Shown: positions 52,378 through 59,844, counted from the first letter of the stretch. The stretch: DNA of 64,000 nt from Candidatus Falkowbacteria bacterium (GCA_026396835.1 JAPLWA010000004.1:434001-498000); one strand, 5' to 3'. Notes: generated by a model from the sequence alone, not told the origin. Program-made: numbers and translations.

Positions 52378-54738
52378 TTATGACAAGGCCTTAGTCCCCT
52401 CTTTTTTAACCATACCTGACAAAGGGAAAGAAACATAGAAAGTAGTTTCTTTGTCTTTAACGGATTCAAACCAAATTTTTCCGCCACCATTCTCAACAAT
52501 TTTTTTAACCAGATACAAACCAATACCATTACCATCAGGATCTATATCTTGAGCATTACTAGCCCTAAAGAGTTTAGAAAATATCTTAGTCTTATCTTTT
52601 TCTGGCACTCCGGCGCCGTTGTTACATACACTAATAACAATATCATTAGCTTTCTTCTCGATAGCAATTTTAATCTTACCTTTTTCAGGTGTATATTTTA
52701 TAGCATTAGAAATAAAATTTTGGAAAATAATACGCAACAAGTTTTTATCAGCCGGCACGATTGGCAAATCTTTAGAATATTTTTTTACGATCTCATGACC
52801 CTTGGCAATTATTCTTGGCTTCATTTCATCCAAAACATCTTCGCAAACTTCAGTAAATTTAACCGGCGTAGGATCAATTACAAACACACCCATTTCAATA
52901 CGAGAAACATTCAACAAACTATTAATAAGCTCGTTCATTCTCTGGTTCATACCATACATTTCTGCTACAATTTCTTTTTGTTCACTAGACAATGGGCCAT
53001 AGTCACCATTTTGTAACATTTCAAGATTCCAAGAAATAGAACCAACCGGAGTTTTTAATTGATGTGAAGCTAGGGAAACAAACTCAGTTTTTTCTTGATC
53101 AATTTCCTTTTGCTGCGTAATATCACGCTCTAGGCCAACAAAAAACAAAATTTGTCCTGCCTTATCTAAAACTGGTGAAACACTAATAGCCGCAATATAC
53201 TCTTCACCATTTTTACGACGATTCTTTATTTCTCCATTAAAATTCTGTTTTTTATTTTTTATAATATCCCAAAACTTTTTATAATAAGCCTCAGTCATTG
53301 GTAGATGCCACAAAGAACCAGCTTTTTTACCAATAGATTCAGCCACAGTATAGCCAGTTATTTTTTCAACCATTTTATTGCCATACAAAACAATGCCATC
53401 AATATCAGTAATAACCACTTGGTCAGAAGCATTTTCAACAGCCAATTTAAACTTTTCCAAATCATTAACCAATAATTCAATTTTTGATTTTTCTTTTTCA
53501 ACATCTTCTAAAATATTTAAAACAGCTTGTTTCTGACCTTCTAACTCTTGAGATTTATTATTTATGTCTCTGGTTTGTTCTTTAACCTTCTTATCAACCT
53601 CAGACCTAGATTGCTTAACGGCTGACAACATTGTATTAAAACCTTTAGCCAAATCTTCGATCTCATCATTGGTTTTAACTTCTACTTTTTGATTAAAATC
53701 ACCTTGCTTAACTTTAGCAACTGCAAGCTGCAAATACTTTATTGGTTTAACAATCTTTCTTGAGATTAAAATACCAATAAATAAAAACACCAATAAGGCA
53801 ACAATAAAAATAGAGGATAAAAATAAAATTAAGTTGAATCTGTAATCTAAAATATCTTTTTGATCTACTTTGGTAATAAGGCACCAATTAGTTTCTGGTA
53901 TATAAGAATGAACAGCCACTACATCAATGTTACGATAATCTTTAGTAGCAACTATCTGAGAACCAAAGGTTTGCAAAAACCCTGAATAACCATTTTTAGT
54001 TACGTAATCCATTTCTTTTGGATCAAAACAAGCCGCACTATTAGTTGTCTCAACTTTCTGTTTTAGAATAACACTCTCGCCTAAAAATCGAGAAGGCGTA
54101 ATAAAAAATTTATCTTTATTAATTAAAAAGTTTTCTTCTGTATTACCTAAGCCATTTTCACTTTTAAATATAGAAAAAAAATCAGATGGTAAATATCTTA
54201 AAATAGAAACACCAAGTAAAGCACCATTATCATCCAGTACTGGAGCAGAAATTGTATAAGAAAATATCTTAAGAATGTTGGAAAAATAAACATCTTTAAA
54301 ATAAACACCGGTCTTCCCGTTAGTAAAATAATCTGCCGAGGCATCAATAGAACCTTCTTGAGCTTTGTCAGATGAAGCCACTATCTTACCGCTATTATCC
54401 ATTATAAAAACTTCGTATATGTTAGAATCAGCTTCCTTGGTTCTAACTAAACGCTTATCTATTTTATTTTTTATAGCCTTATATTGACTAGTGGTAGTTG
54501 GCTCTTTTAAAAAATCTCTATAGACCGAAGCGGCCGCTAAAATAACCGAAGTATTTTCTTGGTCTTGAATAAATGTTCTAATATGTTCTGCTCTAGCTCG
54601 ACCGCTAGCATGAAGATAAGAATAAATATTGTTCTTAATAACACTACTAGAATACAAATCGGCCACCAGACAGATCAACGCCGCAGTAAAGATAAAAACG
54701 GCTATGAAGCTAAAATTTATTTTATTTCTAATTTTCAT
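52378..54738 (-). CDS. Hybrid-length sensor histidine kinase: Cache, HAMP, PAS, HisKA, HATPase
   Basis: 786 residues. A membrane helix (about 9-30), a large outer Cache-like domain (about 35-295), a second helix (about 300-325), HAMP (about 330-380), a coiled coil, a PAS domain (about 425-540) with NRRKNGEEYIAAISVSPVLD, the H-box FVSLASHQLKTPVGSISWNL, N-box NFISNAIKYTPEKGKI and G-boxes DGNGIGLYLVKKI. All kinase motifs are intact. It is the last gene of a five-gene unit that starts with a single-domain response regulator and includes two hemerythrin-like proteins, so oxygen or redox state is a possible input. Confidence 0.9.
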   Translation of the reverse strand: MKIRNKINFSFIAVFIFTAALICLVADLYSSSVIKNNIYSYLHASGRARAEHIRTFIQDQENTSVILAAASVYRDFLKEPTTTSQYKAIKNKIDKRLVRTKEADSNIYEVFIMDNSGKIVASSDKAQEGSIDASADYFTNGKTGVYFKDVYFSNILKIFSYTISAPVLDDNGALLGVSILRYLPSDFFSIFKSENGLGNTEENFLINKDKFFITPSRFLGESVILKQKVETTNSAACFDPKEMDYVTKNGYSGFLQTFGSQIVATKDYRNIDVVAVHSYIPETNWCLITKVDQKDILDYRFNLILFLSSIFIVALLVFLFIGILISRKIVKPIKYLQLAVAKVKQGDFNQKVEVKTNDEIEDLAKGFNTMLSAVKQSRSEVDKKVKEQTRDINNKSQELEGQKQAVLNILEDVEKEKSKIELLVNDLEKFKLAVENASDQVVITDIDGIVLYGNKMVEKITGYTVAESIGKKAGSLWHLPMTEAYYKKFWDIIKNKKQNFNGEIKNRRKNGEEYIAAISVSPVLDKAGQILFFVGLERDITQQKEIDQEKTEFVSLASHQLKTPVGSISWNLEMLQNGDYGPLSSEQKEIVAEMYGMNQRMNELINSLLNVSRIEMGVFVIDPTPVKFTEVCEDVLDEMKPRIIAKGHEIVKKYSKDLPIVPADKNLLRIIFQNFISNAIKYTPEKGKIKIAIEKKANDIVISVCNNGAGVPEKDKTKIFSKLFRASNAQDIDPDGNGIGLYLVKKIVENGGGKIWFESVKDKETTFYVSFPLSGMVKKEGTKALS

Positions 54739-54758
54739 TTTAGATTGTTAGATAAAAA

Positions 54759-55190
54759 TTATTGATATATTTCCCAATACCCGTAAACGCCAGATTCTTC
54801 TGACTCAACTCGTAAATTTAAAGCAGAAACAACACTAGCTAACTCTTCTTTAAAAACCTCAAGCTGGCTCTCAATATCAGTCTCAGCTTTATACTTATCT
54901 AAAAAAGCCATTATTACTACACCAATTTCTTTCATTTGGTTAATAAAGTCCTCTGTCTTGGCTGTATCGATATTTCTTTCTTTCATTTTGCTTATTAGAT
55001 TAGGATAAAATACTCCGTTTTCTAATTGTAGATGTTCTGGTAAATCAATTGAAAATTTTTCTAAATTATTAATAATATTCTTGATATCAGAAGCCTCACT
55101 GGTTACTAATTCTAAGGCAGCTCCAAGATCTTTTTGTAAAACCCTATGTTGACCAATCATGGTTGGGACAATATTTTCTAAATTTTCCAT
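54759..55190 (-). CDS. Degenerate hemerythrin-like (HHE) protein
   Basis: 143 residues, four-helix bundle. MIGQHRVLQKDLGAALEL has His15 in helix A and LPEHLQLENGVFYPNL has His53 and Glu57 in helix B, matching HHE proteins. The later ligands are lost: RVESEESGVYGYW, where a His is expected at position 127, has Arg, and no His is seen near residue 90. A di-iron site is therefore unlikely to be complete. It may have become a non-oxygen-binding partner of the flanking sensors. It lies 5 bp after the Cache receptor and 20 bp before the kinase. Confidence 0.6.
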   Translation of the reverse strand: MENLENIVPTMIGQHRVLQKDLGAALELVTSEASDIKNIINNLEKFSIDLPEHLQLENGVFYPNLISKMKERNIDTAKTEDFINQMKEIGVVIMAFLDKYKAETDIESQLEVFKEELASVVSALNLRVESEESGVYGYWEIYQ

Positions 55191-55195
55191 ATAAG

Positions 55196-56491
55196 CTATT
55201 TGTTATTTCTAAGCTCTATAATTTCTTTTTTTAACTTAACCATTTCCAGTTCTCGACCAACCATTAATTTATTTAATTTTTCTGATTCAACTAAAGCTTT
55301 CTTAGAAACAGCTTCGGATTGTTCTAGTTTTTTAGTTTTTTCCTTAAACTTTTTTTCTAGATTATCTGCCATTGAGTTAAAGGCTGTGGCTAAATCACCG
55401 AAAATATCTTTTGATTTTATATCTATTTTTTTAGAAAAATCCCCGGCTGAGATATCCGTAGCAAATGATTTTAGTTTCCATAAAGGAGAAATAGAAAATA
55501 TAATTAACCTATAGATCATTAAGGCGTTTATAGCTATAGCTAAAATAATTAAAGCCAACAGGATGGCTAAAATATTTAATACTGTAGCACTAATTGTTTC
55601 CATGCCATTTTCTGTCACTAAATAAAAAGGGTATTGGCCTAATTTATTAATATTAACAATTTCGGTTTCTCCGTCCTGTTTATCATCTATCTTAAAGCCT
55701 TGTACAGGGGTTTCTTTCCTAATAAATTCCTGAACTGGATCATATTGCAATGATGAAATTTCTTTATCAAGGAATTTTTTAGAATCTTTAAGCGTTAAAC
55801 TTTCTTCAGGAGTAAGTTTGCCTAGACTCTTTAAAAACCTATCTGGTCTATTTGAAGCAATAACAATACCATATTCATCAACTAGCATTAGTGAACCCTG
55901 TTGAGCGGCTTGACTATCAACAATCGAGGTATCAATTTCTTCGCCACTAATTTTTACAACAAAAACTCCTAAAATATTACTAAGATCGTCAAAAACTGGA
56001 TAAGAAAAATAATAACCAAGTTGCTTACTGGTTTTACCTAAAAGTAAATCAACTTCCGGCACGCCCTTAATACCCTCTTTATAGTAATCACGAAAACTAT
56101 AATCTTGACCAACAAAACTTTTATCGGTTGAAACTAAGGCAACACCATTTTTATCTAAAAGATAAAGTGATAAATACTTATTGTCTTCCTTGGCATAATC
56201 AGAAAGAATATTTAATAACTCAAGTCTTTTTTCTTCGCTTGGCTTTAGAAGATAATTTTTTACTGCCGCGCTGCTACTAAGAATTTTAGAAAAGTTTTGA
56301 TTTTTTTCAAATATTTGTACGCTCTCATGCACCTGCTCTATGCTAAGTCGATTAGTGTCCTTTATTTTTTCATTAACCAAAACACTATTTAAATAAAAAT
56401 AAACTACAGCTGATACTAAAAGAGCTAAAACAATGGCTGATAATAAAATTGAACCTAGTATTTTTTTCTTTAACTTTAAATCTTTGAACAT
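55196..56491 (-). CDS. Cache-HAMP receptor without kinase domain
   Basis: 431 residues. A transmembrane helix (about 10-32), an outer dCACHE-like domain (about 35-285) with YSFRDYYKEGIKGVPEVDLL and GYYFSYPVFDDLSNILGVFV, a second helix (about 293-325), HAMP (about 328-380; WKLKSFATDISAGDFSKKID) and a short coiled coil that ends the protein. No histidine kinase, MCP or cyclase output domain follows. Signals must pass to another protein, possibly the full kinase of the operon by HAMP or coiled-coil pairing. Confidence 0.8.
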   Translation of the reverse strand: MFKDLKLKKKILGSILLSAIVLALLVSAVVYFYLNSVLVNEKIKDTNRLSIEQVHESVQIFEKNQNFSKILSSSAAVKNYLLKPSEEKRLELLNILSDYAKEDNKYLSLYLLDKNGVALVSTDKSFVGQDYSFRDYYKEGIKGVPEVDLLLGKTSKQLGYYFSYPVFDDLSNILGVFVVKISGEEIDTSIVDSQAAQQGSLMLVDEYGIVIASNRPDRFLKSLGKLTPEESLTLKDSKKFLDKEISSLQYDPVQEFIRKETPVQGFKIDDKQDGETEIVNINKLGQYPFYLVTENGMETISATVLNILAILLALIILAIAINALMIYRLIIFSISPLWKLKSFATDISAGDFSKKIDIKSKDIFGDLATAFNSMADNLEKKFKEKTKKLEQSEAVSKKALVESEKLNKLMVGRELEMVKLKKEIIELRNNK

Positions 56492-56501
56492 AAAAAATAA
56501 T

Positions 56502-56915
56502 TTATTTTAAACCATGAGAGCTAAAACATTCTTTATATTTTTGATCGACTACTAATAAATGATTTATCAGCCAATCTTCTAAAAAGTCTACTAGCTCAAA
56601 GGCAAATTCTATACTGTAATCTGAGTATTTTTCTTTTAAGGCAGTTAACTTGTCATTAAACTCCTGGTGCTTCTTAATATGTTCTTCAGCCCCATCATAA
56701 TTAAACTCCTTAAAATATTTTTCTTCTGTGCTAAAATGAAATATTTTATATTTTACAAGCGACTCAATAATATTACCAAGATGATCTTTCGGTGTATTGG
56801 TGTTAATCGCTTCTAGCAATTCATTAATAACAACAAACATTCGCTTGTGCTGATTATCAAGCTCTTCAACGCCTACACTATAAATCTCCTCCCACTCTAA
56901 TTTATTAGTGGCCAT
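56502..56915 (-). CDS. Bacteriohemerythrin
   Basis: 137 residues. All seven di-iron ligands are present: His23 (DNQHKRMF), His60 and Glu64 (HFSTEEKYF), His79 and His83 (EEHIKKHQEF), His119 and Asp124 (INHLLVVDQKY). It should bind O2 reversibly, serving as an oxygen carrier or sensor in the cytoplasm. It sits between the response regulator (36 bp) and the Cache receptor (10 bp) genes, which points to an oxygen-sensing role in the signalling unit. Confidence 0.93.
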   Translation of the reverse strand: MATNKLEWEEIYSVGVEELDNQHKRMFVVINELLEAINTNTPKDHLGNIIESLVKYKIFHFSTEEKYFKEFNYDGAEEHIKKHQEFNDKLTALKEKYSDYSIEFAFELVDFLEDWLINHLLVVDQKYKECFSSHGLK

Positions 56916-56951
56916 ATTTTTAATTATAAAAATAAGTAAAGCAAAAAACCT

Positions 56952-57332
56952 TTAGGCTACGCCTAGAATACCCTTAACCTTGCTAATTACTTCAGCTAAA
57001 GTAATATTAGATTTTGGTAAAAAATCGATAGCGCCTAAAGCTCGGGCTTTTTTCTCATCATCAGCCTGGCTAAGATTTGATAAAACAATTACCGGTAAAT
57101 CAAGCTTTTGTTTTTTTATTTCTTCAATTACTTCAAAGCCATTTACTTTAGGCATGACTAAATCACACAACAATAAATCAAAGTGGTTATTTTTAATAGC
57201 TTCTAAAGCAGCTTCGCCGTCTGGCGCGCTTTCAGCCTCAAAACCACTATTTTTTAATTTCAAAACCAAAGCCCGAGAATAGGCTTTTTCATCTTCAGCA
57301 ATCAATATTCGCTTGAGTTTTTGCTCTGTCAT
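56952..57332 (-). CDS. Single-domain response regulator (CheY-like)
   Basis: 126 residues, only a receiver domain. ILIAEDEKAY gives the acidic pocket (Glu13, Asp14), FDLLLCDLVMPKVNGFEVIE holds phospho-acceptor Asp57, VIVLSNLSQ the switch Ser/Thr position and FLPKSN the Lys. There is no DNA-binding or enzymatic output domain, so it must act by protein contact. As the first gene of the unit with hemerythrin, receptor, HHE protein and kinase, it is the likely phosphoryl target of that kinase. Confidence 0.93.
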   Translation of the reverse strand: MTEQKLKRILIAEDEKAYSRALVLKLKNSGFEAESAPDGEAALEAIKNNHFDLLLCDLVMPKVNGFEVIEEIKKQKLDLPVIVLSNLSQADDEKKARALGAIDFLPKSNITLAEVISKVKGILGVA

Positions 57333-59286: not shown

Positions 59287-59844
59287 CTATTCAACTAACA
59301 AAACACCAATCTGACCTTTTTGGCGATGGTAACCATTACCGATACTGCAATAGAACTCAAAGGTGCCTTTTTTACTAGCTGTAAATTCAATAGTTTCACT
59401 TTCACCGGTCTTAAGGTCCTTAGTCTTAACATTGTAAGCTTCCAAAATTAAGTTGTGCATTCCACCTGAGTTAGTGAAAACAAACTTAACTTTATCACCT
59501 TGCTTAACTTTAATTTCATTTGGCGTGTAATAAAAACTACCACCAGTGATATTAAAGGTTAGCTCAGCTGCTTTATGATCAGCAACTCCAGCTTTTAACT
59601 GAACCAATTGATCAGCAGTTAACTCAGCTGGTACAACGGCTTGCATACCATTGCCTTTAGCTGGCATGTCTGACTTTGCTTGCTCGCCAGACTGGCCGCC
59701 CTTGTCTTCTCCCCATCTATTAGCAATAGATGAAGCATCACCTGATCTACGATCGTTGTTGAGGCGCATTATTGAAAAGCCCACAAAAACAATCGCTAGA
59801 ACAGCAACCACAACAATTAAAATGTTGTTTTTCTTGCTATCCAT
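59287..59844 (-). CDS. Membrane-anchored cupredoxin-domain protein
   Basis: 185 residues. An N-terminal membrane helix (about 6-25) and an Asp/Gly/Lys linker precede a cupredoxin beta-sandwich (about 92-185). FNITGGSFYYTPNEIKVKQG begins it. Copper ligands fit His in SGGMHNL, Cys in EFYCSIG and His in NGYHRQ; the fourth (axial) ligand is unclear, as the residue after the loop is Gln. It may store or transfer electrons or copper outside the membrane. With the cytochrome b5 and hemerythrin genes it adds to the redox proteins of this region. Confidence 0.82.
   Translation of the reverse strand: MDSKKNNILIVVVAVLAIVFVGFSIMRLNNDRRSGDASSIANRWGEDKGGQSGEQAKSDMPAKGNGMQAVVPAELTADQLVQLKAGVADHKAAELTFNITGGSFYYTPNEIKVKQGDKVKFVFTNSGGMHNLILEAYNVKTKDLKTGESETIEFTASKKGTFEFYCSIGNGYHRQKGQIGVLLVE

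Follow-up and report, generated by a model that had tools for sequence, protein, structure and literature searches.

Gene content of the locus

The window analysed here is a 64,000-nucleotide stretch of a Candidatus Falkowbacteria genome (GCA_026396835.1, JAPLWA010000004.1:434001-498000), an assembly of 1.05 Mb in six contigs. Recomputed open reading frames confirm a cassette of five genes, all on the minus strand, with the coordinates and order originally described and with gaps of 36, 10, 5 and 20 bp in the direction of transcription. The run begins with a stand-alone CheY-like response regulator (56952-57332; 126 aa), followed by a bacteriohemerythrin (56502-56915; 137 aa), a dCache-HAMP membrane receptor lacking an output domain (55196-56491; 431 aa), a half-site HHE protein (54759-55190; 143 aa) and a dCache-HAMP-PAS-HisKA-HATPase histidine kinase (52378-54738; 786 aa). 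A genome search found two hemerythrin-domain genes, and both lie in the cassette.

The cassette is flanked on its own strand by an ABC exporter gene, 69 bp upstream, and by a gene for a DUF5663 protein, 106 bp downstream; transcription could therefore extend beyond the five genes. A plastocyanin/cupredoxin-like protein is encoded upstream of the exporter (59287-59844, minus strand). No clear Shine-Dalgarno sequence was seen within 20 bases before the starts at 54738, 55190, 56491, 56915 and 57332. A promoter-like site at 57366-57338, close before the regulator, is given no weight, as the promoter pattern occurs as often as expected by chance.

The domain assignments of the original prediction were borne out. 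The kinase contains dCache_1, HAMP, PAS, HisKA and HATPase domains in Pfam, with the phospho-acceptor H559, an N box at 674 and a G box at 736. The regulator matches Response_reg (6.5e-25) and has the phospho-acceptor D57 together with E13/D14, S85 and K107, but no output domain of its own. With a HisKA kinase and complete receiver residues, the pair belongs to the two-component systems. In the receptor Pfam finds dCache_1 and HAMP only. The bacteriohemerythrin matches Pfam Hemerythrin (8e-15), scores 122.9 bits against an NCBIfam cut-off of 84, and carries all seven diiron ligands (H23, H60, E64, H79, H83, H119 and D124, in the arrangement H-HxxxE-HxxxH-HxxxxD), which places it in its family by both score and residues.

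Conservation in relatives

The order receptor, HHE protein, kinase recurs in five further Patescibacteria-like contigs (L069, L070, L071, L072 and L099, of which L069, L071 and L072 were also retrieved as L097, L032 and L098, respectively), and each triad has the HHE gene as its middle member. By family, three of the six triads belong to f25, two to f1 and one is unplaced, related species among them not being independent, and the L070 contig ends within the kinase gene. The gene order on which the original prediction was to stand or fall is thus conserved for these three genes, and the recurrence of the triad supports the view that the cassette is one signalling unit rather than a chance set.

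The five-gene set as a whole did not fare as well, since the complete set was seen in the window genome only. Among the triads, the bacteriohemerythrin and a leading regulator were seen in the window alone; L069, L071 and L072 have two regulators after the kinase, and the window has none there. As such, the proposal of a single signalling complex is supported for the receptor and the HHE protein, whose association with the kinase is conserved, while the hemerythrin and the regulator are variable. Named relatives carrying the HHE gene include Parcubacteria, Lloydbacteria, Falkowbacteria and Paceibacterota metagenome-assembled genomes, and HHE genes were not found in congeneric genomes.

The output-less receptor and its tail

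The predicted structure of the receptor (mean pLDDT 78.5) has a Cache domain that resembles DctB sensor domains and a continuous helix at 363-428 after the HAMP domain. Conservation among five triad receptors peaks in the last 30 residues, which hold 12 of the 27 invariant columns. This C-terminal tail (55196-55276, minus strand; from residue 406, LNKLMVGRELEMVKLKKEIIELRNNK) gave a profile with matches in 21 of 61 relative genomes. Among the loci fetched for those matches, 17 receptors have the tail no more than 60 residues from the C-terminus; a kinase gene directly follows six of them and lies within three genes downstream of ten, and PilB or PilC is encoded in the same run as five. An output-less tail receptor ahead of a kinase is thus a regular arrangement within the order, of which the window's 'split receptor' is one case among many. 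We propose that the tail may serve as a docking or coupling element on the kinase or the HHE protein. Searches with the tail gave nothing below E 0.1 in the PDB and nothing at E 0.5 among plasmid records. The L069 receptor (L069:6213-6974, plus strand) is only 253 aa long, shows no Cache domain and begins immediately behind pilC, which reflects either a true deletion or an assembly joint.

The half-site HHE protein

The small protein between receptor and kinase matches Pfam Hemerythrin (9.3e-8; 33.0 bits against a gathering threshold of 25.3) and carries H15, H53, E57 and E131, but its diiron ligand set is incomplete: the helix-C histidine is absent and R127 occupies the position of the fourth-helix histidine. 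Set against known hemerythrin sites, we take the protein to keep the histidines of helices A and B along with the two bridging carboxylates, and to have lost the helix-C histidine, with arginine in place of the helix-D histidine. The original prediction was right that late ligands are missing. Its description of the protein as degenerate does not stand, because Q14, H15, H53, E57, R127, E131 and E132 are invariant across 13 homologues, the window protein included. Decay of the gene was ruled out on the same seven residues. An HPt-like role was also discarded, as we read no evident HPt motif at the conserved histidine and a relay step between kinase and receiver would be superfluous.

The predicted structure is a four-helix bundle (pLDDT 93.7). 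Foldseek alone returned no PDB match under E 0.001, and a second structural comparison gave NMB1532 (Z 12.9), Rsd (Z 11.6, over 130 residues at 3.2 A) and DcrH-Hr (Z 11.5) among many designed bundles, such Z values being ordinary for bundles. The protein could in principle be a metal-free, Rsd/AlgQ-like bundle that binds a sigma factor or another protein, in which case the cassette would adjust transcription and this subunit would have no oxygen chemistry. Rsd is among its structural neighbours, the NCBIfam sigma D regulator model matches 9 of the 13 homologues (best 2.1e-8), and Pfam Rsd_AlgQ matches seven. However, comparable Z values are common among helical bundles, and the window protein itself falls below the family cut-offs (27.6 against 35 in Pfam, 26.8 against 139 in NCBIfam). 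Furthermore, Hemerythrin is the stronger Pfam family, matching all 13 homologues at E 0.01, and the invariant His15, His53, Glu57 and Glu131 would be needless in a mere scaffold. We consider an Rsd-type role quite improbable.

By its sequence matches, namely Hemerythrin in every homologue and Rsd scores below cut-off in the window protein, the half-site protein is assigned to the HHE superfamily but to neither of the two functional families, its similarity to Rsd notwithstanding. It has the four-helix bundle in common with Rsd/AlgQ and resembles them in sequence across the second half, where an L..R...E segment is shared, but it keeps the hemerythrin-type histidines and glutamates and is encoded in a two-component operon. 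With YtfE/RIC and other HHE proteins it shares the HHE fold, the H...HxxxE pattern in helices A and B and the final glutamate, and differs in the absent helix-C histidine and the helix-D histidine replaced by arginine.

Six orphan half-site HHE genes were also found (L052/L073, L055, L059/L075, L074, L076 and L101), with unrelated neighbours such as radical SAM, NUDIX and P-type ATPase genes. The family thus also works outside the triad. It offers a natural experiment on how a diiron protein may turn into an adaptor.

The bacteriohemerythrin and possible oxygen sensing

With its full ligand set, the bacteriohemerythrin would be expected from its family to bind O2. Oxygen sensing in the form originally proposed was weakened, since the intact hemerythrin lies outside the conserved core; what remains in its favour is the family and a single parallel case. 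In that case, locus L045, the closest relative found (68% identity) stands in the order PilC, pilins, bacteriohemerythrin, related kinase and regulator, the kinase directly after the hemerythrin. A tail receptor gene in convergent orientation is also present there, and its Cache region shares 57% identity with the Cache region of the window kinase.

Another possibility is that the bacteriohemerythrin serves in oxygen protection, as a scavenger of O2 or iron with no signalling role, so that only the receptor, the HHE protein, the kinase and the regulator form a unit. Its absence from the other five triads would fit this, as would the genes of this kind elsewhere in the order, most of which lie away from kinases, with stand-alone copies being common. 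Against this, the window gene sits inside the run with gaps of 36 and 10 bp, and its closest relative found adjoins a related kinase in a pilus operon. A scavenging role is somewhat unlikely on this evidence, and a place for the bacteriohemerythrin in oxygen input to the cassette is preferred.

Ancestry of the kinase and regulator

The regulator and the kinase have close relatives at pilus loci of the same genome. The window regulator and the regulator directly upstream of pilB are sisters with 59% identity (support 97/93), and the PilB-upstream regulator of L069 joins them (97/94). Similarly, the kinase core groups with that of the kinase in the genome's own pilus operon (100/100; 71% identity). 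The PAS domain tells a different story, with 36% identity to the own pilus-operon kinase versus 54-62% to cassette and pilus-operon kinases elsewhere, and relatedness switches near residue 545. On these identities and the core tree, on which the reading is based because the PAS tree is poorly resolved with long branches, the kinase is a mosaic. The DHp helix HQLKTP(V/I)GSISWN(L/A)EML is common to the window kinase and its own pilus-operon counterpart, whereas the others have HQLRTPLS..W. The two cores share 72% nucleotide identity and third positions agree in 59% of same-residue codons, which indicates that the core is not a very recent copy. Judged by sequence, the cassette resembles a duplicate of the kinase and regulator pair from the pilus operon of the same genome, combined with a different sensory half.

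The own pilus-operon kinase has FAD_binding_6 and NAD_binding_1 domains fused to PAS-PAS-HisKA-HATPase (L134:807-3065, minus strand; contig C4 of the window genome, G000, at about 529806-532064). Redox may feed pilus control through this reductase-like N-terminus, which would be an independent hint in the same direction.

Probable link to type IV pili

Pilus genes lie upstream of the triad in all four relatives with informative flanks. PilB/PilC genes are directly upstream on the same strand in L069 and L070, and pilins in L070, L072 and L099; L071 is uninformative because a single other gene precedes the triad on a short contig. In L100 the HHE gene is a member of a gene cluster that also contains PilC, PilM and pilins. 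This link was not preselected, because the loci came from searches with the tail and the HHE protein. Type IV pilus ATPase genes occur in 41 of 41 relatives and a regulator adjoins only 4 of the 30 best-scoring PilB genes, so that the association of regulator and PilB concerns a subset of pilus loci. In the pilus cluster of L100, genes for two SpoIIAA-like (STAS-type) proteins (L100:7977-8762, minus strand) separate the half-site HHE gene from a tail receptor of HAMP-PAS-PAS architecture.

Paralogy and gene order together suggest that the output of the cassette is likely to be type IV pili, which the original prediction overlooked and which is the main addition made here. The same complex could instead have a non-pilus output, with the regulator controlling another protein or acting as a phosphate sink and the likeness to the pilus pair reflecting only the duplication from which the kinase core and the regulator arose. 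The window cassette itself has no adjoining pilus genes, the regulator is without an output domain of its own, and duplicated two-component pairs often diverge in output. However, the triad is linked to pilus genes in four other contigs, and the DHp specificity region is common to the window kinase and the own pilus kinase. In addition, there are few other regulators in the genome: four exceed the family cut-off, and the three besides that of the cassette are at two pilus loci. A non-pilus output is therefore unlikely, and control of pili is taken forward as the preferred reading.

Proposed mechanism

The cassette may be a two-component phosphorelay that couples oxygen or redox state and a periplasmic ligand to the control of type IV pili, and thereby to attachment or movement by means of pili, a reading whose chances we regard as evenly balanced. 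Oxygen or redox would enter through the hemerythrin-fold proteins, while the Cache domains would receive a small ligand from the periplasm. O2 would bind at the diiron site of the bacteriohemerythrin, as its family suggests. The output-less receptor would sense the outside ligand, and the change would travel along the predicted continuous helix to the conserved tail. The half-site HHE protein could act as an adaptor between the receptor tail and the kinase; as arginine takes one of the ligand positions for the second metal, it may hold a single metal or be locked. The kinase would integrate these signals with those of its own Cache and PAS domains and, given its catalytic residues, would phosphorylate the regulator. 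The target of the regulator would most likely be the type IV pilus machine, either the assembly motor PilB or its localisation, so that pilus extension or polarity is adjusted in a manner comparable to PilG in Pil-Chp, as paralogy and gene order suggest.

More tentatively, Patescibacteria could possess a class of phosphorelay for pilus control that has not been described before and whose output-less receptor acts via a conserved C-terminal coiled-coil tail and a hemerythrin-fold adaptor with arginine at a second-metal ligand position to drive a separate kinase and CheY-like regulator, resulting in pili guided by oxygen or redox. Cultivated Patescibacteria live attached to other microbes. In Saccharibacteria such attachment is driven by type IV pili (PMC12206443), and that article makes no mention of two-component regulators, kinases or CheY. 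If a pilus-tied set of receptor, adaptor, kinase and regulator is true, the decisions underlying pilus extension would become testable, including their oxygen or redox input.

Comparison with known systems

No description of the five-gene set was found in the literature searched, which mostly excluded subscription journals, and nothing there combined hemerythrin with Patescibacteria or CPR bacteria. The building blocks are ordinary, the core is conserved and the combination is unusual.

Among the closest known systems is Pil-Chp of Pseudomonas aeruginosa (PilJ-ChpA-PilG/PilH), in which a receptor, a kinase and a CheY-like regulator act on pilus extension, the regulators PilG and PilH acting on PilB (PMC12632253). 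Regulators related to that of the cassette are encoded beside PilB, and paralogy and gene order suggest a similar action on the pilus machinery. The cassette differs in its HisKA/HATPase kinase, which is not of the CheA type as in ChpA, and in its added hemerythrin-fold proteins. It contains no CheW, MCP signalling domain or methylation enzymes, and with a HisKA kinase and a receptor of dCache and HAMP only, in place of a CheA-type kinase and an MCP signalling domain, it falls outside Pil-Chp.

There are also precedents for the hemerythrin fold in signal transduction. Fusions of hemerythrin domains with chemoreceptors and with GGDEF proteins have been described (PMC4919030), and in methanotrophs bacteriohemerythrin genes adjoin chemotaxis and kinase genes (PMC12607906). 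The DcrH chemoreceptor, Bhr-GGDEF and bacteriohemerythrins with PAS or kinase parts (PMC4919030, PMC12607906) share with the cassette the use of this fold in signalling, but those are mostly fused polypeptides, whereas the cassette has separate small proteins, one of them with a half-site.
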